NCBI GenBank assembly: GCA_021372825.1
Contig: JAJFTR010000077.1
Span: 1 to 61,304 of the forward strand
Source of the DNA: Actinomycetes bacterium
GTDB taxonomy: Bacteria; Actinomycetota; Coriobacteriia; Anaerosomatales; Anaerosomataceae
Length of the DNA stretch: 61,304 nucleotides
Direction of reading: 5' to 3'
The notes under the pieces were generated by a model. The model saw nothing but the letters and a program-made list of their open reading frames with translations, searched no databases and was not told where the DNA came from. How positions within the stretch are numbered: position 1 is the first letter of the stretch; every line of letters starts with the position of its first letter. Shown here in pieces: positions 46,529 to 55,900 of this stretch. Position numbers and translations under genes: made by a program.

Positions 46529-47194
46529 CTAGGCGCGCCAAAGATACCCGACGTTACGTACCGTCTCGAGCCGCCGCGCCACCTCTGGACCTAGCTTCGC
46601 GCGAACACGCCGCACGTGGACGTCCACGGTCCTGGCGCCACCCAAGTAGTCGGTTCCCCACACGCGTTTGAGCAGGACTTCCCGGCTGTACACGCGGTTC
46701 GGATGCGTGAGCATGAAGACGAACAGCGCATATTCCAGGTACGTGAACTCCACTGGCTGCGTTCCGATGCGGACCTGGTATGTCGCGAGATCGACGGTAA
46801 GGTCCTCGACCCTCAGGACCTCGCGCGACAGCCTCTCCTCTCCTGGCCACACCAGCGCACGCACGCGGGCCGCGAGCTCACCAGCGACTCCACCCCTGAC
46901 CATGAAGTCCGATGGGACACGGACCGGCAGGCGCAGGTTACCCAATGCCTCCCGCTCCACGAGCAGCACAAGCCGCGTCTCGCATCCCTCGCTTGCAGAA
47001 CGCTCCACCACAGAGGTGAAGACCTCGGGCGAGCGGCCCGCGTCGATCACCACCACATCGATACCACCGGCCGAAAGAGCAGGGCCGACGTCGGCCAGCC
47101 GACAGGTGGTGACCGAGATATCCAGCGGCGCGATGGCCTCCTGCATCCATGCGAGAGAGTGCACGTCATCCGATGCGAGGAGCGCGGTCTTCAT
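46529..47194 (-). CDS. glnR: GlnR-like OmpR-family regulator with degenerate receiver
   Basis: A 221-residue protein with an N-terminal receiver-like domain and a C-terminal winged helix (VEFTYLEYALFVFMLTHPNRVYSREVLLKRVWG). The receiver keeps acidic residues (ASDD; VVVIDAGRSP) but the conserved phosphoryl-stabilising lysine position reads FMVRGG, typical of orphan, phosphorylation-independent actinobacterial GlnR proteins. It lies directly downstream of glnA. There is no partner kinase beside it. ATG 47194 is chosen because a -10 element lies 7 nt before it. Naming as GlnR is inferred from context and family. Confidence 0.7.
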   Translation of the reverse strand: MKTALLASDDVHSLAWMQEAIAPLDISVTTCRLADVGPALSAGGIDVVVIDAGRSPEVFTSVVERSASEGCETRLVLLVEREALGNLRLPVRVPSDFMVRGGVAGELAARVRALVWPGEERLSREVLRVEDLTVDLATYQVRIGTQPVEFTYLEYALFVFMLTHPNRVYSREVLLKRVWGTDYLGGARTVDVHVRRVRAKLGPEVARRLETVRNVGYLWRA

Positions 47195-47207
47195 ATGCAT
47201 GATTCTA
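47195..47207 (-). promoter_or_regulatory. Leaderless -10 element of the GlnR-like gene
   Basis: TAGAAT (47207-47202 on the minus strand) precedes the ATG at 47194 by exactly 7 nt. No ribosome-binding site or clear -35 is seen. It gives the regulator a promoter separate from glnA. Confidence 0.4.
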
Positions 47208-47294
47208 CCGCTCCTGTCCTGCCACACGACGCGCGCCGGACGGAGGAGTTCCGCCCGGCGCCGTTGCCGTCAGATGATGGTCCTACCTTAGGAT

Positions 47295-48626
47295 CTAGAT
47301 GACCGAGAGGTACTTGTCGATCTCCCACTGTGACACGTTCTTGATGTACTCGGCCCACTCAGCCCGCTTGTTCTCCACATAGAACCGGTGGATGTGCTCT
47401 CCGAGGATGTCCTTCATGGTCTCCGAGTTTTCGAACAGGTCGATGGCTTCGCCCAGATTGCGCGGCAGCGTGCCGATCTCCGCAGCTTCGAGTTCCTCTG
47501 AACACATGTGGAAGATGTCGTTGGTGGCTTCGGGCATGAGCTCGAGCTCCTCCTCAATGCCCTTGAGGCCCGCTCCCAACATCACGGCGAAGGCCAGATA
47601 GGGGTTCGCGGACGGGTCAGGCGAACGCAACTCCACGCGCGTCGCGGCCTCCTTCCCCGGCTTGTACATCGGTACCCGCACCATTGCCGAGCGGTTCCGC
47701 TGCGCCCACGACACATAAGTGGGCGCTTCGTATCCCGGTATCAACCGCTTGTAAGAGTTCACAAGCGGGTTGGTCACCGCACAGAACTCAGGGGCGTACT
47801 TCAGCAGACCAGCGACGTAATGCCGCGCGACCTTGGAGAGGTGCTGAGGGTCGTTCGCGTCGTAGAAGGCATTGCCGTCCTTGGTCCACAACGACTGGTG
47901 GGTATGCATGCCCGAGCCGTTCTGGCCCTGTATCGGCTTCGGCATGAACGTGGCGTAGACGCCATTGGCATACGCGACCTCTTTGACGATGAGCCGATAG
48001 GTCATCACGCTGTCCGCCATGGTGAGCGCGTCTGCGAATCGCAGGTCTATCTCGTGCTGCGACGGCGCGACTTCATGGTGCGAATACTCCACGGGGATGC
48101 CCATCTTCTCCAGCGTGAGCACCGTCTCCCGCCGTAGATCACTTGCGACATCTAGCGGAGTAAGGTCGAAGTAGCCTCCTTCGTCGAGGATCTGGGTGCC
48201 CTTGTCGTCGGCGAAGTAGAAGAACTCGAGCTCCGGACCCACATACATGGCGTACCCCATGTCAGCGGCCTTCGTAAGCACCCTTCTCAACGCGTAGCGT
48301 GGATCGCCCGGGAACGGAGTGCCGTCCGGCTGCACGATATCGCAGAACATGCGGGCGACCCCGTCTTCTCCCGGACGCCAAGGCAGGACCTGGAAGGTCG
48401 ACGCATCGGGGAACGCCACCATGTCCGACTCCTGGATACGCGTGAACCCGTCGATCGATGAGCCGTCGAAACCCATGCCCTCTTCGAAGGCGCCTTCCAC
48501 CTCGCTGTCTGTGACAGCGAACGACTTCAAGACGCCGAGCACGTCGGTGAACCAGAAGCGGACGAAGCGGATACCTCGCTCCTGTATCGTCCGTAGCACG
48601 TACTCCTTGTCATACGTCGGACCCAT
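47295..48626 (-). CDS. glnA: Glutamine synthetase type I
   Basis: A 443-residue GS-I enzyme, which makes glutamine from glutamate and ammonia. It begins YDKEYVLRTIQERGIRFVRFWFTDVLG; GSSIDGFTRIQESDM, the metal/ATP site GSGMHTHQSLW and NRSAMVRVP are intact. The length fits the GSI-alpha group, and the adenylylation-loop tyrosine region is not evident near the C-terminus. ATG 48626 with AAGGAGG nine bases upstream is chosen instead of the frame opening at 48734. It follows the glutamate synthase genes, completing the GS-GOGAT cycle. Confidence 0.95.
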   Translation of the reverse strand: MGPTYDKEYVLRTIQERGIRFVRFWFTDVLGVLKSFAVTDSEVEGAFEEGMGFDGSSIDGFTRIQESDMVAFPDASTFQVLPWRPGEDGVARMFCDIVQPDGTPFPGDPRYALRRVLTKAADMGYAMYVGPELEFFYFADDKGTQILDEGGYFDLTPLDVASDLRRETVLTLEKMGIPVEYSHHEVAPSQHEIDLRFADALTMADSVMTYRLIVKEVAYANGVYATFMPKPIQGQNGSGMHTHQSLWTKDGNAFYDANDPQHLSKVARHYVAGLLKYAPEFCAVTNPLVNSYKRLIPGYEAPTYVSWAQRNRSAMVRVPMYKPGKEAATRVELRSPDPSANPYLAFAVMLGAGLKGIEEELELMPEATNDIFHMCSEELEAAEIGTLPRNLGEAIDLFENSETMKDILGEHIHRFYVENKRAEWAEYIKNVSQWEIDKYLSVI

Positions 48627-48699: not shown

Positions 48700-48728
48700 G
48701 TAACGGCCGGATGTTTCCGCCATGTTTC
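48700..48728 (-). promoter_or_regulatory. Putative GlnR box upstream of glnA
   Basis: On the coding strand GAAAC-ATGGCG-GAAAC (48728-48713) is followed 8 nt later by GTTAC (48704-48700). Two GAAAC half-sites at 11-bp spacing fit the actinobacterial GlnR pattern of AC-containing half-sites. The same GAAAC-N6-GAAAC arrangement is in the hdrBC-glt promoter. Confidence 0.45.
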
Positions 48729-48784: not shown

Positions 48785-49600
48785 CTACAGGGGTACGTAC
48801 AACTTGCCATAGGGCCGATGGCTGAACGGAGCGAGCCTTGTGAAGGGCTGTGACGTCACCTCGTCGAAGTCCATCCCCATAGCCGAGCAGTAATCACGAA
48901 GAAGCGGGACCAAGGTGGCCATGTCTTCCTCGGTCGCCTCGAAGATCCCCACCTCCTTGCCACATCGCCAGGGCTCCACGGTCCCACGGACGTAGATCAC
49001 CCCCCCGTGCATGCCCGCCCCGAGGAACGATCCGGCGACGGGCTCCTCGGGGAATTGCGTGTTCATCCCCAGGAGAACGGCGATACCTCCCGCCATGTAC
49101 TCCCCGAAGAAATCCCGCGCCTTGCCTCCGCACACAAGAACGGGAACGAGGTTCTCGTACGCCTTCATATGGATCCCCACGCGGTAGCCCACATCGCCTC
49201 GTATGTACACATGTCCTCCGCGCATCCCATAGCCGAGCACATCACCCGCGTCCCCGTGCACGACGATCGTGCCCGCGTTCATGGTGTTGCCGACTCCGTC
49301 CTGCGCGTTACCGAACACCTCGATCATCGGCCCGTCCATGAGCATGCCAAGATCGTTTCCCGCCGTGCCGTGGACATCGATCCGCACCCCGTGAGCTGAG
49401 ACACCGGTACCGATGTAGCGCTGACCGTTGACGCCAGTGAGGACCAGGTGCGTGGCGCCGTCTGAGATGGCCTGGCGGACCGTCTCGTTCACCCGACGGT
49501 AGTAGACACCCCGTGCGTCGACGGTGGTGACGCCGCCGTCTCGCCGCACTTGGGGTGCGACATCGCTGTATCCCTCAACGACTGCAGCCGTGTAGCTCAT
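48785..49600 (-). CDS. Glutamate synthase, GXGXG (alpha C-terminal) subunit
   Basis: A 271-residue protein that corresponds to the C-terminal beta-helix domain of GltB. The repeated GXGXG pattern is clear (ANDLGMLM-type turns, GNAQDGVGNTMNAG, GDAGDVLGYGMRGG, GDVGYRVGIHM). It is structural, supporting the ammonia tunnel between the amidotransferase and FMN sites. ATG 49600 with GGGAG upstream is preferred to an earlier GTG at 49606. It is the last of three genes making up one GltB chain. Confidence 0.9.
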   Translation of the reverse strand: MSYTAAVVEGYSDVAPQVRRDGGVTTVDARGVYYRRVNETVRQAISDGATHLVLTGVNGQRYIGTGVSAHGVRIDVHGTAGNDLGMLMDGPMIEVFGNAQDGVGNTMNAGTIVVHGDAGDVLGYGMRGGHVYIRGDVGYRVGIHMKAYENLVPVLVCGGKARDFFGEYMAGGIAVLLGMNTQFPEEPVAGSFLGAGMHGGVIYVRGTVEPWRCGKEVGIFEATEEDMATLVPLLRDYCSAMGMDFDEVTSQPFTRLAPFSHRPYGKLYVPL

Positions 49601-49612
49601 GACCACCTCTCC

Positions 49613-51124
49613 CTACATCCCGACGGGCTTGACGCCCAGGACCGCGTTCATCTGAGCATCGAGGCCGACCGAGCGCAGGCGTTCACGCGACCCGCGCAGT
49701 GACTCGATCGCGTTCACACCGAGCGCCCCCAAGATCTCTTGGATCTCGTGACTCCATGCGCTGACCAGGTTGACGAGCCTCTCGGCGCCCCACTCGGGAT
49801 CGAGACGGCGTGTGAGCTCGGGCTTCTGAGTGGTGAGCCCCCACGAGCAGCATCCGGTGTGGCAGCTCTGGCACAGGTGGCACCCAAGCGCCATAAGCGC
49901 CGCCGAGCCGATAGCGACGACGTCGGCTCCGAGCGCGATCGCCTTCGCCGCGTCGGCCGAAGAACGGATCGAGCCAGCCGCGACGATGGATGCGTGGTTG
50001 CGGATACCCTCGTCACGGAGCCGCTGGTCCACCACAGCGATGGCCACCTCGATCGGTATCCCAATATGGTCACGGATGACCTGCGGCGCCGCTCCAGTAC
50101 CGCCGCGAAAACCGTCAAGGTAGATGTAGTCCGCGCCGGCACGCACGATGCCTGAAGCGATGGCGGCCACGTTGTGGACGGCGGCGATCTTGACACCCAC
50201 CGGCTTGTAGCCGCTCGCCTCCTTGAGCGCGTAGATCAGCTGGCGCAAGTCCTCGATGGAGTAGATGTCGTGGTGAGGCGCGGGGCTGATAGCGTCGGTA
50301 CCCTGCGGGATCATGCGAGTGGAGGAGACTTCCTTGTCGATCTTCTCGCCCGGAAGGTGACCGCCGATACCGGGCTTGGCGCCCTGTCCGATCTTGATCT
50401 CGATGGCGGCGCCACGACCAAGGTACTCGGGGTCCACACCAAAACGCCCCGACGCCACCTGCACGATCACACGGTCCTGATAGGGATACAAGTCGGCGTG
50501 CAATCCGCCTTCGCCTGTGTTCATAAGCGTGCCGAGGCGCTGTGCGGCCATCGCGAGTGACTTGTGCACGTTAAGCGACACCGACCCGTAACTCATCGGC
50601 GAGAAGATGATCGGCGCGTCGAGCTGGATGTTGGCGGTCATCCCCCCGTTAGGGGCAAGACGGTAGCCGCCCGCCCCGTCGGCTTCCACTGAGACCGCAT
50701 CAGGCTTGCGGCCAAGGTACGTGCGAAGTTCCATCGGCTCGCGCAGCGGATCGATGGACGGATTCGTGACCTGGCACGCGTCGAGTAGCAGGTGGTCGAA
50801 TATGCGCGGGTAGGGGCGCGGATTACCCATGGAGGTGAGGAGCACGCCGCCTGTCTCGGCCTGCCGCCAGATCGCCTTGCGCGCGTCGACCGTCCAGTTG
50901 TCGTTGTCCTTGTAGGCGAGCGCGTTCTTCTCGATGGTGATGCAGTGCGCGGGACAGAAGGTCACACACCGGTGACAGGCGCGGCACTTCGAATCGTCGG
51001 GTATCGGGCGCTCGTTGAAACTGTAGACGCCCCAGCCGCACTGCTGCACGCAACGCCCGCACTTATGGCACTTGTCGTAGTCGATCTTCACCCTGAACTC
51101 GGGCTGGATGTAGGTGCCTGGCAT
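49613..51124 (-). CDS. Glutamate synthase, ferredoxin-FMN (central) subunit
   Basis: A 503-residue protein. Residues 15-65 hold two [4Fe-4S] motifs (CHKCGRCVQQC and CRACHRCVTFCPAHC); the rest is the FMN barrel of glutamate synthase (PIIFSPMSYGSVS, LGRGAAIEIKIGQGAKPGIGGHL, YIYLDGFRGGTGAAP) with a cysteine-rich cluster CHLCQSCHTGCC for a further iron-sulfur centre. It converts 2-oxoglutarate and tunnelled ammonia to glutamate. This split form occurs in archaea and anaerobic bacteria and normally takes electrons from ferredoxin-like donors. No GltD subunit is nearby. Confidence 0.92.
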   Translation of the reverse strand: MPGTYIQPEFRVKIDYDKCHKCGRCVQQCGWGVYSFNERPIPDDSKCRACHRCVTFCPAHCITIEKNALAYKDNDNWTVDARKAIWRQAETGGVLLTSMGNPRPYPRIFDHLLLDACQVTNPSIDPLREPMELRTYLGRKPDAVSVEADGAGGYRLAPNGGMTANIQLDAPIIFSPMSYGSVSLNVHKSLAMAAQRLGTLMNTGEGGLHADLYPYQDRVIVQVASGRFGVDPEYLGRGAAIEIKIGQGAKPGIGGHLPGEKIDKEVSSTRMIPQGTDAISPAPHHDIYSIEDLRQLIYALKEASGYKPVGVKIAAVHNVAAIASGIVRAGADYIYLDGFRGGTGAAPQVIRDHIGIPIEVAIAVVDQRLRDEGIRNHASIVAAGSIRSSADAAKAIALGADVVAIGSAALMALGCHLCQSCHTGCCSWGLTTQKPELTRRLDPEWGAERLVNLVSAWSHEIQEILGALGVNAIESLRGSRERLRSVGLDAQMNAVLGVKPVGM

Positions 51125-51126
51125 GA

Positions 51127-52332
51127 TTACGCTCTCGCCTCCTCAAAGTCGCAGGAGGTCTCGGTGCCAGTGACCGCACACGAGACTTCCGTGGGAGACA
51201 GGTGCAGGTCACCGTGGATCGGCCAGTCCATCCCCGCGACTCGCGCGACTGTCGGCTCGCCTGCCTTGGGCGTCCACACCTTGTCAGGAGAGTCCATTAC
51301 CGCACGGATGGCACTCTCTTCCGAGGCGACCATCACCACCGAACCTGTGCGCGCCGCCACAAGTGGTCGCAACTTGATGCGATCGTTGAGCGCCACCATC
51401 CCGCCATTGAAACCCAGAACGATGGCGAAAGGACCATTGAGCATCGCCGGGCCGTAGACCGCCCGAAGTGATCGCATGAGCTCGCGCTCGGCGGCAGGCA
51501 TTCGGTCGATCTCCTCCCACAAGGGGCTCGCGAGCGCCTTGCAGGCCAGTTCGAGCGGCAACTTGTGACGGCGAAGCATCAGATCGAACAGGTAGGCGGC
51601 CACTTCGGTGTCCGTGCCGAGCGTGCACTTGTACCCGAAGGTCTCCAGGTAGCGACTGTTGATGCCATAGCTTGATATCTCACCGTTGTGAACGATGGTC
51701 CAGTCCAGCAGCGCGAAAGGATGCGCACCGCCCCACCAGCCGGGTGTGTTCGTAGGAAACCGGTTGTGTCCCGTCCAGGTGTGCGCGGCGTACTCCTCCA
51801 GACGGAAGTAGTGACCGATCTCCTCGGGGTAGCCCACCCCTTTGAAGACGCCCATGTTCTTGCCGGACGAGGCGACGAAAGCGCCGTCGACGGTCGCGTT
51901 GATGGTCATGACCGCCTTGACCACGTAGTCCTCGGCGGACGACTCGGCCTCCTCGAGCTTGCGGGGATGCGGGTTCAAGAAGTAGCGCCACAGAAGCGGC
52001 GCATCGGTGATGCGCTTGACGGGACGCGTAGGCATCGGTTCGGCGAGGTCCACCACGAAGTACTCATCGAAGAGCGCCTCGGCGTCCTCCTTCGCGCGCA
52101 CGTCGTGATACATCATGTGGAATGCGAAGTGGTCAGGGAACTCGGGATAGATGCCGTATCCCGCGAAGCCGCCACCGAGGCCGTTGCCCCGGTCGTGCTG
52201 GATAGCCATGGCGAGTATCGCGTCTTCGCCGCTCATGAGAGTACCGCTCTCATCGCACAGTCCCATGAGTCCGCAGCCGCCGTGGATCTTGTAGGGTGCC
52301 TCTTCCGCATAGCGCGGTCGCTGCGCCGTCAT
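51127..52332 (-). CDS. Glutamate synthase, class II glutamine amidotransferase subunit
   Basis: A 401-residue Ntn-hydrolase domain, equivalent to the N-terminal part of GltB. It releases ammonia from glutamine. The nucleophile is predicted at Cys20 (KIHGGCGLMGLCD), so a 19-residue propeptide would have to be removed; RFPTNTPGWWGGAHPFALLDWTIVHNGEI-type residues form the glutamine pocket. Its stop lies 2 nt before the FMN-subunit start, showing tight coupling. Confidence 0.9.
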   Translation of the reverse strand: MTAQRPRYAEEAPYKIHGGCGLMGLCDESGTLMSGEDAILAMAIQHDRGNGLGGGFAGYGIYPEFPDHFAFHMMYHDVRAKEDAEALFDEYFVVDLAEPMPTRPVKRITDAPLLWRYFLNPHPRKLEEAESSAEDYVVKAVMTINATVDGAFVASSGKNMGVFKGVGYPEEIGHYFRLEEYAAHTWTGHNRFPTNTPGWWGGAHPFALLDWTIVHNGEISSYGINSRYLETFGYKCTLGTDTEVAAYLFDLMLRRHKLPLELACKALASPLWEEIDRMPAAERELMRSLRAVYGPAMLNGPFAIVLGFNGGMVALNDRIKLRPLVAARTGSVVMVASEESAIRAVMDSPDKVWTPKAGEPTVARVAGMDWPIHGDLHLSPTEVSCAVTGTETSCDFEEARA

Positions 52333-52335
52333 CTC

Positions 52336-53670
52336 TTACTCGACTCCTTCTTCTTCTTGCGCCAACAGGGCCGCGAGCGCATCCCCGCCACTTGACGGAA
52401 GCGGACCCAGGCCCAGCTTCTTGCGCGCGGACGCCCGTGGCGTGCCGAGCACGCCCGTCTTCTCAAAGGTCTGATATGCCGAGACCACCTGCTCGGGACC
52501 GTTACCAGAGGCGATCGCGAGCTCCTTTAGGGTGCGGAACGTGTCGGCCATCCCGATGCGGCTGGGACACATCTCCTGGCACGTGTAGCACTCCAGGCAC
52601 TTCCACACTTGCGGGTCGGCGAGCACTTCGTCGATCTGCCCCAGTAGCAGGCGCTCCATGATCTCGGTCGGCTGGTACGCAGGGTCGACCTTGCATACCG
52701 GGCAGTCGTCCTTGCAGGCTTGGCAGTTCACGCACTTGGACAGAAGCGCCACATCCAAGAAGGAAGCGAGCCGGACCTTGTCGGCTTGGCGATCGTTCCA
52801 CTTCTCAAGGAAGGAATCCACCGGCACGCGGTGCATGTCGAGCCCGATCTCCTCGGGTGTGTGGCCGTAGCCGAGCGCAATGAGCTCGGAAAGATAGAAC
52901 ACAGGAACGTTGATGTCCTCTTTCGCTCTCTGAAGGGCTGCCTGGTTGAGGTCGAACTGCTGGAAGCAGCTCGGGCACACCACCACGAGTGCGTCGATCT
53001 TGTTGTTCTCAAGGTCGACCAGCTTGCGCCGGGCGAAGGCAAGCGAACCCTCGCGCTCGCCCACCCGGTCCAGGGCGTTCCCACAACACTGCATCTTGGT
53101 GGCGTAGTCGACGACTGTTGCGCCGAGCGACGCCACAAGCGCCTCCACTTTGGTGGGATTGAGAGGGTCGTCCCACCGCACCGCCGGGCTCGGACGCAGC
53201 AGGTGGCATCCGTAGTGGACCGCGATGCGCATACCCCAGAAAGGACGCGCCAGCCGAGAAGCCACCACCGAGGCGCCGACCTCATCGGACAACCACTCCG
53301 CCAGGTGCACTACCTTGAGCGCGCCCGAGTAGCGCAGGTCCTCCATCGCAAGCTTCTTGTTGATGGCCTCAGTCGCACGCCAGTCTGTGGAAAGGTGGCT
53401 CTGTGCCTCTTTGAACGTCGAGTAGCAGCCGTTGCAGGGGGTGAGCACATCCAGGCCCGCTCGCTCGACGATTGCGAGATTGCGCGCCGCCGTCATGTAG
53501 AAGACGTCCTCATCGGCGGCTTTCACGAGCACGCTCTCGGGACAGCAGGTGTGGCCGTCGAGCTCGTGGACGGTGGCGCCCAGGTCGTCGAACACCAACC
53601 GCGTCGCCTTCTCGATGAAAGGAAAGCGCGCCGGGATCGTGCACCCCCAGAACACCGCAAAATCCTTCAT
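52336..53670 (-). CDS. HdrB-HdrC fusion protein (heterodisulfide-reductase-like)
   Basis: A 444-residue fusion. The N-terminal 290 residues are HdrB-like with two cysteine-rich CCG domains: WGCTIP...HTCCPE...PCNGC and YGCHLL...QCCGNA...VVCPSC, which bind noncubane [4Fe-4S] clusters in HdrB. The C-terminal part is HdrC-like with two ferredoxin motifs, CVNCQACKDDCPVCK and CLECYTCQEMCP. It is the first gene of the glutamate synthase operon, 3 nt before the amidotransferase. HdrABC-type proteins handle disulfides or bifurcating electron flow; here an electron-supply role for glutamate synthase is inferred. ATG 53670 is chosen since the longer start at 53748 lies within the leader hairpins. Confidence 0.88.
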   Translation of the reverse strand: MKDFAVFWGCTIPARFPFIEKATRLVFDDLGATVHELDGHTCCPESVLVKAADEDVFYMTAARNLAIVERAGLDVLTPCNGCYSTFKEAQSHLSTDWRATEAINKKLAMEDLRYSGALKVVHLAEWLSDEVGASVVASRLARPFWGMRIAVHYGCHLLRPSPAVRWDDPLNPTKVEALVASLGATVVDYATKMQCCGNALDRVGEREGSLAFARRKLVDLENNKIDALVVVCPSCFQQFDLNQAALQRAKEDINVPVFYLSELIALGYGHTPEEIGLDMHRVPVDSFLEKWNDRQADKVRLASFLDVALLSKCVNCQACKDDCPVCKVDPAYQPTEIMERLLLGQIDEVLADPQVWKCLECYTCQEMCPSRIGMADTFRTLKELAIASGNGPEQVVSAYQTFEKTGVLGTPRASARKKLGLGPLPSSGGDALAALLAQEEEGVE

Positions 53671-53700: not shown

Positions 53701-53783
53701 ACAAACAAAAACGCCCACCACGGGCCACTCGACCCGGGTGAGCGCCATTGCTCACATAGTCCTGTGACACATCGTCGTGTCAC
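53701..53783 (-). ncRNA. ANTAR-type dual-hairpin attenuator in the leader of hdrBC-glt
   Basis: On the minus strand, hairpin 1 is GTGACAC-GACGAT-GTGTCAC (53783-53764), a 7-bp stem with a six-base loop. After 8 nt, hairpin 2 is GTGAGC-AATGGC-GCTCAC (53755-53738), six-base loop with A at position 1 and G at position 4, as required for ANTAR recognition; loop 1 has G4 but G instead of A at position 1. A terminator follows: GCTCACC-CGGG (53743-53733), loop, CCCG-T-GGTGGGC (53724-53713), then GTTTTTGTTTGT. Its 5' arm is the 3' arm of hairpin 2, so the two are mutually exclusive. The ANTAR gene pdtaR lies immediately upstream. Confidence 0.85.
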
Positions 53784-53790
53784 CTCTCGC

Positions 53791-53831
53791 AGTCTATCAC
53801 GCGCAGCGTGATCGCGAAACCCATGGGAAAC
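53791..53831 (-). promoter_or_regulatory. Promoter of hdrBC-glt with putative GlnR box
   Basis: On the minus strand TTTCGC (53819-53814), a 17-nt spacer and an extended -10 TGA-TAGACT (core at 53796-53791) place the start near 53784, one base before hairpin 1. GAAAC-CCATGG-GAAAC (53816-53831 on the plus strand) covers the -35 and the bases upstream, matching the motif before glnA. Confidence 0.5.
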
Positions 53832-53905: not shown

Positions 53906-54475
53906 CTACTCCTGCGCCTTCTCCGCCACGATGATGGCTTCGGCGACCTGCCTGAGTGTCATACGCCTGTCCATCGCGAGCTTCTGAAGACGCCGGAACG
54001 CTTCGGGCTCGGTAAGCCCCGTGGCCATCAGCGCTCCTTTGGCGCGATCGACCGCCTTGCGCGTCTCAAGCCGCGCGGCAAGATCGTCGATCTCAGCCTC
54101 AAGAGCACGCGCTTCGGTGAAGCGCGAGACGGCCACCTGCATCGCTGGGACGATATCCCGCTTCGTGAAAGGCTTCACGAGGTACGCCATCGCTCCCGCC
54201 GCGCTCGCGTCCTCCACATAGGTGGACTGGGAGAACGCCGTCACCATGACGACCGGCGCGAGCCGCTCGGCGTTGATGATGCGCGCCGCCTCGATACCGT
54301 CCATACCGGGCATCTTCACATCCATGAACACCACGTCGGGCCTGAGCTCGCGGGTCAGGGACACGGCCTCTTCGCCGTCGCGTGCCTCGCCAACCACCTG
54401 ATGTCCTTCCTCGGCGAGCATCTCGCGCAAGTCCATCCGGATGATGGCCTCGTCTTCGGCGATCACGACCCGCAT
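53906..54475 (-). CDS. pdtaR: ANTAR-domain response regulator (PdtaR-like antiterminator)
   Basis: A 189-residue protein. The N-terminal receiver is complete: acidic pocket VIAEDEA, phospho-acceptor Asp in [13 protein letters not shown], and Lys in YLVKPF. The C-terminal ANTAR domain reads [36 protein letters not shown], the RNA-binding three-helix fold that stabilises dual hexaloop hairpins and prevents termination. It is co-transcribed with pdtaS (3 nt gap) and stands directly upstream of an RNA with the expected target architecture. Confidence 0.93.
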
Positions 54476-54478
54476 GGC

Positions 54479-55900
54479 TCAGTCGTCCTCTCTGCTCGAC
54501 CGGCCGAGGGGAACACGGACGGTCACTGTCGCACCTCGTGCACGCGAGAACGCAAGCGTTCCTTGCAAGTCATCCTCCACCACGGTCTTGACTATCGCGA
54601 GCCCCAAGTTAGCCGAGGACTCTGGATCGAAGGTCTCCGGAAGTCCCGCCCCGTCGTCACGGACGACGAGATGCAGCTCGTCAGGGAGCTGCCGCATCGC
54701 CACCGTCACGCGGCCAGACGGCCGGTCTGCGACACCGTGTTCGATGGCGTTGTGAACGAGTTCCGCACAGACGAGCGCGAGCGACGTGGCAGTTGACGCG
54801 GGGATCAGCCCGATCTCGCCTTCGACGTCAACGCTCACCTCGGAGTCGCCTGCCATACTCCGTCGCACCATATCAACGACGGTGCGCGCGACAGCGGTGA
54901 AATCGACGGACTCCTCAGTGGCCGTGGCGAGCATCTCGTGAACAACGGCCATGGACGACACGCGTTCGACGGCCTCAGCCAAGGCTCGCGCCGCTTCCTC
55001 ACTCGTCGTGCGACGGGCCTGGATACGCAGGAGCGAGGCAATCGTCTGCAGGTTGTTCTTCACTCGATGATGGACTTCGCGGATCGTCGCCTCCTTCACT
55101 CGAATCTCCTGCTCGCGCCTTCGAACGTCAGTGATGTCCAAGACGAGCACACAAGCCCCCGGGTCGAATCCGATCGTGCGGAACCGCAGCACACGGCCCC
55201 CAACCTCGAGAGTGACCGCTCGCGCGCCCTTCGTGTGGAGCACGGGCGCGATCGCCGTTGCTCCGCCCGGAAGCGCCGCCGCTTCCCTTCCCACGGGCGC
55301 ACCGTCGAGACCAGCCAGCCTCATGATGTTGACAGCGTTAGGGCTGGCGTAGCACACGATACCCGCGCCGTCGACCTCCATGATGCCGTCTCCCGCGCGA
55401 CGCACGGTGGTGAAGGGTTCTCCGGAGTCGATGTCGATGATGGGCCCGCATGCGAGCAGCCCGACCACTCGCTCTGCCAGAGACATGAAAGCGATCTCCA
55501 TCGCGCCGGGCGATTCAGTCACTTGCTCGACGACGTCACGGATGACCACACCCGCCGGTCGGCCATCCGTCATGACAGGCCGCGCAGAGGTGTGATAGCC
55601 GATACCGCGCGTGACCCGCCGACGGGTACCGATGACGGCGACCACGTGTTCGAAAGCGTCGTATGCCTCCGGCTCGTCACTTCGAGCGAGAAGCTGACCG
55701 GCCCGGCTGGCCGCGACTGCCGCGACCGCAGTGACCGGCCGTGCGTCTGCCACCACCCGAAGGGCGTGACCGTCGGGTATCGCAAGCGCCACATCGCCAT
55801 ACCCTAGGTCTGCGACAAGCTGCAGGTTCTCCGCCACGTTCGCGAGATGCGGCCCGAGTGGGCTCTGCGTGTGACCGGTCTGTAGGGAGTTCGTGTCCAT
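54479..55900 (-). CDS. pdtaS: Sensor histidine kinase of the HisKA_2 group (PdtaS-like)
   Basis: A 473-residue soluble kinase without evident transmembrane segments. An N-terminal GAF-like domain (about residues 15-150) and a PAS-like domain (about 160-275, DGIMEVDGAGIVCYASPNAV) precede the phospho-acceptor helix EVHHRVKNNLQTIASLLRIQAR and the HATPase (CAELVHNAIEHG, DDGAGLP, LGLAIVKTV). The acceptor is the His in HHRVKNNLQ. It should phosphorylate PdtaR. A TATAAT lies 6 nt before the ATG, so the message is probably leaderless. The sensed signal is unknown; its target here suggests a nitrogen or redox cue. Confidence 0.92.
   Translation of the reverse strand: MDTNSLQTGHTQSPLGPHLANVAENLQLVADLGYGDVALAIPDGHALRVVADARPVTAVAAVAASRAGQLLARSDEPEAYDAFEHVVAVIGTRRRVTRGIGYHTSARPVMTDGRPAGVVIRDVVEQVTESPGAMEIAFMSLAERVVGLLACGPIIDIDSGEPFTTVRRAGDGIMEVDGAGIVCYASPNAVNIMRLAGLDGAPVGREAAALPGGATAIAPVLHTKGARAVTLEVGGRVLRFRTIGFDPGACVLVLDITDVRRREQEIRVKEATIREVHHRVKNNLQTIASLLRIQARRTTSEEAARALAEAVERVSSMAVVHEMLATATEESVDFTAVARTVVDMVRRSMAGDSEVSVDVEGEIGLIPASTATSLALVCAELVHNAIEHGVADRPSGRVTVAMRQLPDELHLVVRDDGAGLPETFDPESSANLGLAIVKTVVEDDLQGTLAFSRARGATVTVRVPLGRSSREDD

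Follow-up and report, generated by a model that had tools for sequence, protein, structure and literature searches.

In Enterococcus faecalis, the ethanolamine (eut) operon is governed by EutW/EutV, a kinase and its partner response regulator composed of receiver and ANTAR domains, and several eut leaders carry two hexaloop hairpins, P1 and P2, the second of which overlaps an intrinsic terminator (PMC3369931, PMC8934654). Putative ANTAR RNAs were also reported in 2012 from Desulfotomaculum reducens and D. acetoxidans, where they accompany nitrogen genes, glutamate synthase among them, again with dual hairpins and, in many cases, with overlapping terminators (PMC3369931, Fig. 9). Furthermore, as cited in PMC4676874, NitR or an ANTAR gene is found beside the GS-GOGAT genes of clostridia, Clostridium thermocellum being one case of such an ANTAR gene; on the strength of this gene context, the clostridial regulator can be likened to the one described below, being likewise linked to ammonium-assimilation genes. 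PdtaS/PdtaR of mycobacteria, which are the closest solved relatives of the characteristic parts of both proteins considered here, have targets concerned with Cu, NO, heme and redox genes (PMC8131098, PMC11537054). The Mycobacterium tuberculosis kinase senses Cu and NO through a dicysteine motif (PMC8131098), and mycobacterial PdtaR is described as a repressor, including of translation (PMC8164766, PMC8131098). Finally, the GlnR regulon of actinomycetes comprises boxes of 11-bp period at nitrogen genes and an OmpR-type regulator with an atypical receiver (PMC10704036).

In the window, by which we mean the whole stretch of 61,304 nucleotides analysed, the minus strand between pdtaR (end 53906) and hdr (start 53670) carries a leader that is very probably an ANTAR-type transcription attenuator, controlled by PdtaS/PdtaR, on an hdr/GOGAT/glnA operon. 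Its P2 is near-identical in sequence to that of the eut leaders, whereas its P1 sits right at the 5' end of the RNA and, in the window, has a loop beginning with G1. Instead of several leaders for ethanolamine genes, a single leader precedes a GOGAT/GS operon. The Desulfotomaculum RNAs belong to Firmicutes with several leaders per genome, whereas here one strong target is found throughout an actinobacterial order, before a split GOGAT of the HdrB/C type. The sequence-only reading had held that control of such an operon by a neighbouring PdtaS/PdtaR pair is not a standard example, which is half right: ANTAR attenuators at nitrogen genes, glutamate synthase included, had already been predicted in 2012 (PMC3369931), and what goes beyond them is an order-wide one-to-one pairing, a GlnR-like layer and a single-hexaloop form. 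The main text of the actinobacterial ANTAR-RNA survey mentions neither Coriobacteriia nor glutamate synthase nor hdr (PMC8164766). PdtaS/PdtaR gain, outside mycobacteria, a concrete and apparently sole target, the ammonium-assimilation operon of an entire coriobacterial order for which metagenomes are the main source of genomes, and in the pairing of one regulator with one RNA ANTAR control can be modelled cleanly. The features of the locus are as follows.

54479-55900, minus strand: pdtaS, histidine kinase (Pfam GAF_PdtaS and HisKA_2)
53906-54475, minus strand: pdtaR, response regulator with Response_reg and ANTAR domains, the presumed RNA reader
53816-53831, minus strand: GTTTC-n6-GTTTC direct repeat (exact pattern) of 11-bp period, overlapping the -35; candidate GlnR-type operator
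53799-53791, minus strand: extended -10 TGATAGACT, a consensus match, with TAGACT at 53796-53791 and the extended TG
53783-53764, minus strand: P1 hexaloop hairpin, GTGACAC-GACGAT-GTGTCAC, 7 bp, loop with G1 and G4
53755-53738, minus strand: P2 hexaloop hairpin, the putative antiterminator, GTGAGC-AATGGC-GCTCAC, 6 bp, loop with A1 and G4
53745-53703, minus strand: predicted intrinsic terminator, stem 53745-53711 followed by a U-tract to 53703
52336-53670, minus strand: hdr, HdrB/HdrC-like Fe-S protein with CCG and Fer4 domains, first gene of the operon
51127-52332, minus strand: glutamate synthase amidotransferase subunit, class II GATase (Pfam GATase_2)
49613-51124, minus strand: glutamate synthase FMN/ferredoxin-type catalytic subunit (Pfam Glu_synthase, 1.7e-134; Fer4)
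48785-49606, minus strand: glutamate synthase GXGXG subunit (Pfam GXGXG)
48713-48728, plus strand: second GTTTC-n6-GTTTC box, upstream of glnA
47295-48626, minus strand: glnA, type I glutamine synthetase (TIGR00653, 523.9 bits), its start set by us at the ATG of MGPTYDKEYVL
46529-47227, minus strand: GlnR-like OmpR-family regulator with an atypical receiver, directly 3' of glnA

The products of the operon are an HdrB/HdrC-like Fe-S protein, a glutamate synthase split into three subunits and a glutamine synthetase. Read from 5' to 3', the leader consists of the GTTTC repeats, the extended -10, P1, 8 nt of linker, P2, the terminator and its U-tract. The hallmark of ANTAR-target RNAs is a pair of hexaloop hairpins, each with a stem of 3 bp or more, separated by about 2-25 nt, and the window has both hairpins and such a linker; the two hexaloop hairpins 8 nt apart described in the sequence-only reading were recovered at the same coordinates on the minus strand, where the element lies, and the plus-strand fold of the region was accordingly set aside. 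From the -10 TAGACT, transcription is predicted to start near 53784, which precedes P1 by one base, in agreement with what had been proposed. The bulged terminator also stood, although the 11-bp stem assigned to it proved to be part of a longer one, to which the predicted fold gives about 15-16 bp and a single bulge, with TTTTTGTTT directly 3'. Its 5' arm was said to share the 3' arm of P2, and it does contain the same nucleotides, GCTCAC at 53743-53738, so that P2 and the terminator are mutually exclusive. The fold energy of the leader beats 200 of 200 dinucleotide shuffles (z -3.9), and folding gives -43.5 kcal/mol with the terminator against -31.9 with P2 forced; with a gap of about 12 kcal/mol, termination is the expected default.

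The A1/G4 loop rule invoked by the earlier reading is followed in full by P2 only, since the P1 loop starts with G and shares just G4. P2 departs at one position from the eut ANTAR 13-mer AGCAANGRRGCUY and is the sole such match in the 61 kb, but 1.5 one-mismatch matches are expected by chance per whole window, so that the match is weak and not significant by itself. Rfam, which had been named as a place to check the leader, gave no match in release 15 at the gathering threshold or at E <= 5. The start of hdr is the ATG at 53670, which yields the N-terminus MKDFAVFWGC kept in orthologs. An in-frame ATG at 53748, inside P2 and not conserved, makes the hdr frame look longer; gene callers that take it would bury the element in coding sequence, and a survey that dropped coding matches could have missed the switch through such a mis-called hdr start.

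The gene directly upstream encodes, as had been claimed, an ANTAR response regulator accompanied by its kinase. Over its full length, PdtaR aligns with Rv1626 (PDB 1s8n; 2.4e-62) and with EutV (6wsh; 3e-40); it has a receiver and a C-terminal ANTAR domain, and its phospho-acceptor Asp52 aligns with Asp54 of EutV. The EutV residues that contact loop base G4 are Arg142, Lys149, Glu160 and Tyr164 (PMC8934654). In the alignment, PdtaR keeps the first three and has Phe, also aromatic, in place of Tyr164; Lys143, Met172 and Arg175 of EutV are kept as well, and Lys147 is replaced by Arg. Three contacts of EutV to the RNA backbone are changed (Arg168 to Gln, Asn173 to Asp, Arg177 to Thr). PdtaS has the GAF_PdtaS, HisKA_2 and HATPase architecture, and its best structural relative is PDB 2ykf, a PdtaS. 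The Cys53/Cys57 dicysteine motif is absent from it (LRVVADARP against LVCVAQCRP of 2ykf; orthologs read likewise), and the signal therefore probably differs from that of M. tuberculosis PdtaS.

The proposed switch would operate as follows. RNA polymerase would start roughly one base ahead of P1, and P1 would fold in the nascent transcript. In the default state, P2 would pair through its 3' half with downstream sequence to give the more stable terminator, and transcription would stop ahead of hdr-gltB1-gltB2-gltB3-glnA. Upon phosphorylation by PdtaS, PdtaR would dimerise and its ANTAR domain would grip the P1 hexaloop and then the P2 hexaloop; with P2 held, the terminator would be blocked and the operon transcribed. 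What the sequences themselves show is the layout of the leader with its mutually exclusive pairings, its conservation, the single ANTAR gene and the scarcity of further strong targets. For phosphorylation and dimerisation of PdtaR, its binding to P1 and then P2, read-through and the direction of control, we infer the behaviour from that of EutV (PMC3369931, PMC8934654). Least certain in the scheme are the direction of regulation and the signal.

Comparison across the order leaves little doubt that the element is real. A search with the hdr protein detected full or split orthologs in 55 of the 61 genomes, and 55 orthologous hdr-glt leaders, from 16 families with hdr identity of 66-83%, were readable. 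Every one of these (55/55) has the core of P2, GRGC-hexaloop-GCTC, together with a terminator that takes in the 3' arm of P2 by pairing. P1 was found in 54, the exception being the leader of a termite-type genome (G051; L041/L143), which retains P2 and the terminator; 54 of 55 likewise have a -10 of the form TGnT[AG]...T, about 6-11 nt before P1. In the P2 loop, A1 occurs in 53 leaders and G4 in all 55; in the P1 loop, the corresponding counts are 44 and 54, with A1 missing from 10 orthologs besides the window, and the actinobacterial ANTAR-RNA search model tolerates single deviations from A1/G4 (PMC8164766). Ortholog linkers are mostly 10-15 nt long. The sequence-only reading had set a lack of conservation in relatives, of the A1/G4 loops or of the overlap of hairpin and terminator, as its own refutation; this check came out in its favour, and the ANTAR antitermination switch, as first suggested from the window, is the best-supported reading.

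The P1 helix covaries: among 52 distinct rows, five of six pairs show double changes and 97.8% of the cells are paired. Double-change cells, mostly in P1, number 41 compared to 12.9 in shuffles, and the covariation score of 0.235 exceeds that of shuffles (0.118; 0/500) and falls to 0.02-0.07 when the pairing is slid. For instance, 36 leaders have A-U at the P1 pair adjoining the closing pair, 12 have U-A and 3 have G-C. Pairs in the inner part of P2 are nearly constant, so covariation cannot support them. The terminator pair just after GCTC varies among A-U, G-C and G-U and is paired in 55/55. GAGCAA, the 5' half of P2, lies outside the terminator stem in most leaders and is nevertheless nearly invariant; hence, the terminator alone is an insufficient explanation of the conservation. 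The element also occurs in another order of the class (G061, G071) and in two deeper relatives (L152, L153), and was not found in the hdr-glt relatives examined from Thermoleophilia, Firmicutes, Nitrospirae and archaea.

In the genome of the window, pdtaR is the only ANTAR gene, and each of the 56 ANTAR-bearing genomes among the 61 examined in the order has exactly one. The hdr-glt genes and the ANTAR gene occur together in 54 genomes and are both lacking from 4, with hdr only in 1 and ANTAR only in 2 (Fisher 1.4e-4, a statistic that ignores ancestry and assembly gaps). The sole hdr-only genome is 64% complete. The two ANTAR-only genomes, G057 (L211) and G059 (L212), have pdtaSR but neither hdr-glt nor a strong RNA match, which suggests that PdtaR may have other jobs; either assembly gaps or another target would account for the pattern. 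In all 46 genomes with both genes on one contig, pdtaR precedes hdr-glt in the same orientation. A covariance model built from 54 leaders, a single leader type that could miss divergent targets, gave one strong match per genome, the hdr-glt leader, in nearly every genome. The next-best matches are weak, and those inspected overlap or adjoin coding sequence; in the window's own genome (E 0.009 and worse) they were attributed to chance; a match in G091 and a second one in G021 were likewise rejected, being inside coding sequence and devoid of a terminator. The near-absence of other strong sites argues for a dedicated switch, and the hdr-glt leader appears, from these searches, to be the only target of PdtaR in the order.

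A further layer of control is suggested by the promoter. The repeats resemble the b-box of GlnR boxes, which are of the 11-bp-period GAAAC type, with GTTTC on the other strand (PMC10704036). TTTC at 11-bp spacing over the -35 is found in 39 of 54 orthologous leaders, compared to a mean of 0.02 in shuffles. Genome-wide, GTTTC-n6-GTTTC occurs 6 times against 2 for the reversed control, and half of these boxes (3/6) precede nitrogen genes, namely, the hdr-glt operon, glnA and a second glutamine synthetase; the last box (L191; G000:C22:10440-10455) belongs to a glutamine synthetase gene that adjoins a glutamate-synthase-domain gene. The GlnR-like protein (46529-47227) has a Trans_reg_C match and no Response_reg match, and 53 of the order's 61 genomes contain a match to its gene. 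The best PDB matches of the protein are 8hih, 8hig and 8hml, which we take to be GlnR entries. Dual control, by the GlnR-like protein at initiation and by PdtaR at elongation, is likely, and the same operon would seemingly be checked twice; the layering of the candidate boxes with an ANTAR attenuator sets the present case apart from the actinomycete GlnR regulon.

Three explanations that dispense with ANTAR antitermination were weighed. Given that the hairpin and terminator lie directly after pdtaR in the window, and that in 26 of 55 genomes pdtaR lies upstream within 1 kb, they might be a plain 3' terminator of the pdtaSR transcript, devoid of switching. However, the element persists in 20 genomes in which 1-14 kb separate it from pdtaR and in 8 that have pdtaR on a different contig, it is preceded by its own -10 in all leaders but one, and GAGCAA and P1 are conserved although they lie outside the terminator; as the distance to pdtaR ranges from 185 nt up to 14 kb, the RNA must be more than the tail of the pdtaR transcript, and we regard this explanation as highly improbable. 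Many kinds of attenuator precede metabolic operons, and the one described here might respond to a ligand, a leader peptide or a protein other than PdtaR. The dual hexaloops, G4 in nearly all copies and the exact occurrence of the eut consensus AGCAANGRRGCUY in two leaders (L016 and L021) speak for an ANTAR protein instead; the leader alignment gives no sign of a conserved ORF and no known RNA family in Rfam was matched, so that a non-ANTAR factor seems very unlikely. Control of translation, with the RNA hiding the ribosome-binding site as in mycobacteria, has a precedent in that about 37% of the analysed actinobacterial ANTAR RNAs overlap the ribosome-binding site or start (PMC8164766), but here the U-tract ends about 30 nt before the ATG at 53670, P2 and the terminator stop short of AGGGG, and terminators are present in 55/55 leaders, which makes this mode hardly credible as well.

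A more serious competitor retains the same RNA and protein with the opposite default: PdtaS would be active and the operon open until a kinase-inhibiting signal closes it. In M. tuberculosis, PdtaS is on constitutively and Cu or NO turns it off (PMC8131098), and the mycobacterial kinase is inhibited by heme (PMC11537054). Against this, the missing Cys53/Cys57 motif makes it unlikely that the same ligands act through that motif, and EutW/EutV is signal-activated; we consider the opposite default a substantial possibility, albeit one we lean away from. Several observations weigh against PdtaR-dependent antitermination itself, namely, G1 in the P1 loop, the changed EutV backbone contacts, the nearly invariant inner pairs of P2, the two genomes with pdtaSR but no hdr-glt, and the lack of an Rfam match; by analogy, the repressive mode of mycobacterial PdtaR also counts against it.

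When the covariance model was applied phylum-wide, one match (G248) was found before a canonical gltB, in another class of Actinomycetota. In that class, GRGC-hexaloop-GCTC with A1 and G4 in the loop and an overlapping terminator is present in 17 of 17 readable gltB leaders; the gltB leaders of the class noted in this connection are L223, L231-L246 and L250, candidate single-hexaloop ANTAR attenuators. A predicted -10 could be placed in 12 of the 17, at 13-28 nt before the hexaloop compared to 37-47 nt in Coriobacteriia, which leaves no room for P1 in those 12. The gltB leaders L245 and L246 may be longer. Judged from its sequence rather than by a family search, the only ANTAR protein of G248 seems to be GAF-ANTAR-like and to lack a receiver. 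Whether ANTAR glutamate-synthase attenuators exist in more than one class of Actinomycetota, in a dual-hexaloop and a single-hexaloop form, is in our judgement evenly balanced. The eut-based model requires P1 as a recruitment hairpin. The EutV structure paper proposed the possible existence of single hexaloops in settings where the timing of the polymerase is unimportant, and urged bioinformatic work on them (PMC8934654); the gltB leaders would be terminators of this single-hexaloop kind. They bear on how far single hexaloops serve ANTAR proteins: if the two-form reading is true, one hexaloop would be enough for co-transcriptional antitermination in nature, contrary to the eut-based model.

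Among the other matches in the phylum, G379 and G507 were unconvincing (coding overlap or no U-tract), and in four or five further weak ones the length of the P2 loop was wrong. Inverted repeats of the TTAGG type (GTTAGG...CCTAAC) are seen upstream of gltB in L231, L233, L234, L236, L240, L241 and L243; they resemble DtxR/IdeR iron boxes. The divergent gene of L223 seems to encode an ABC transporter ATPase.
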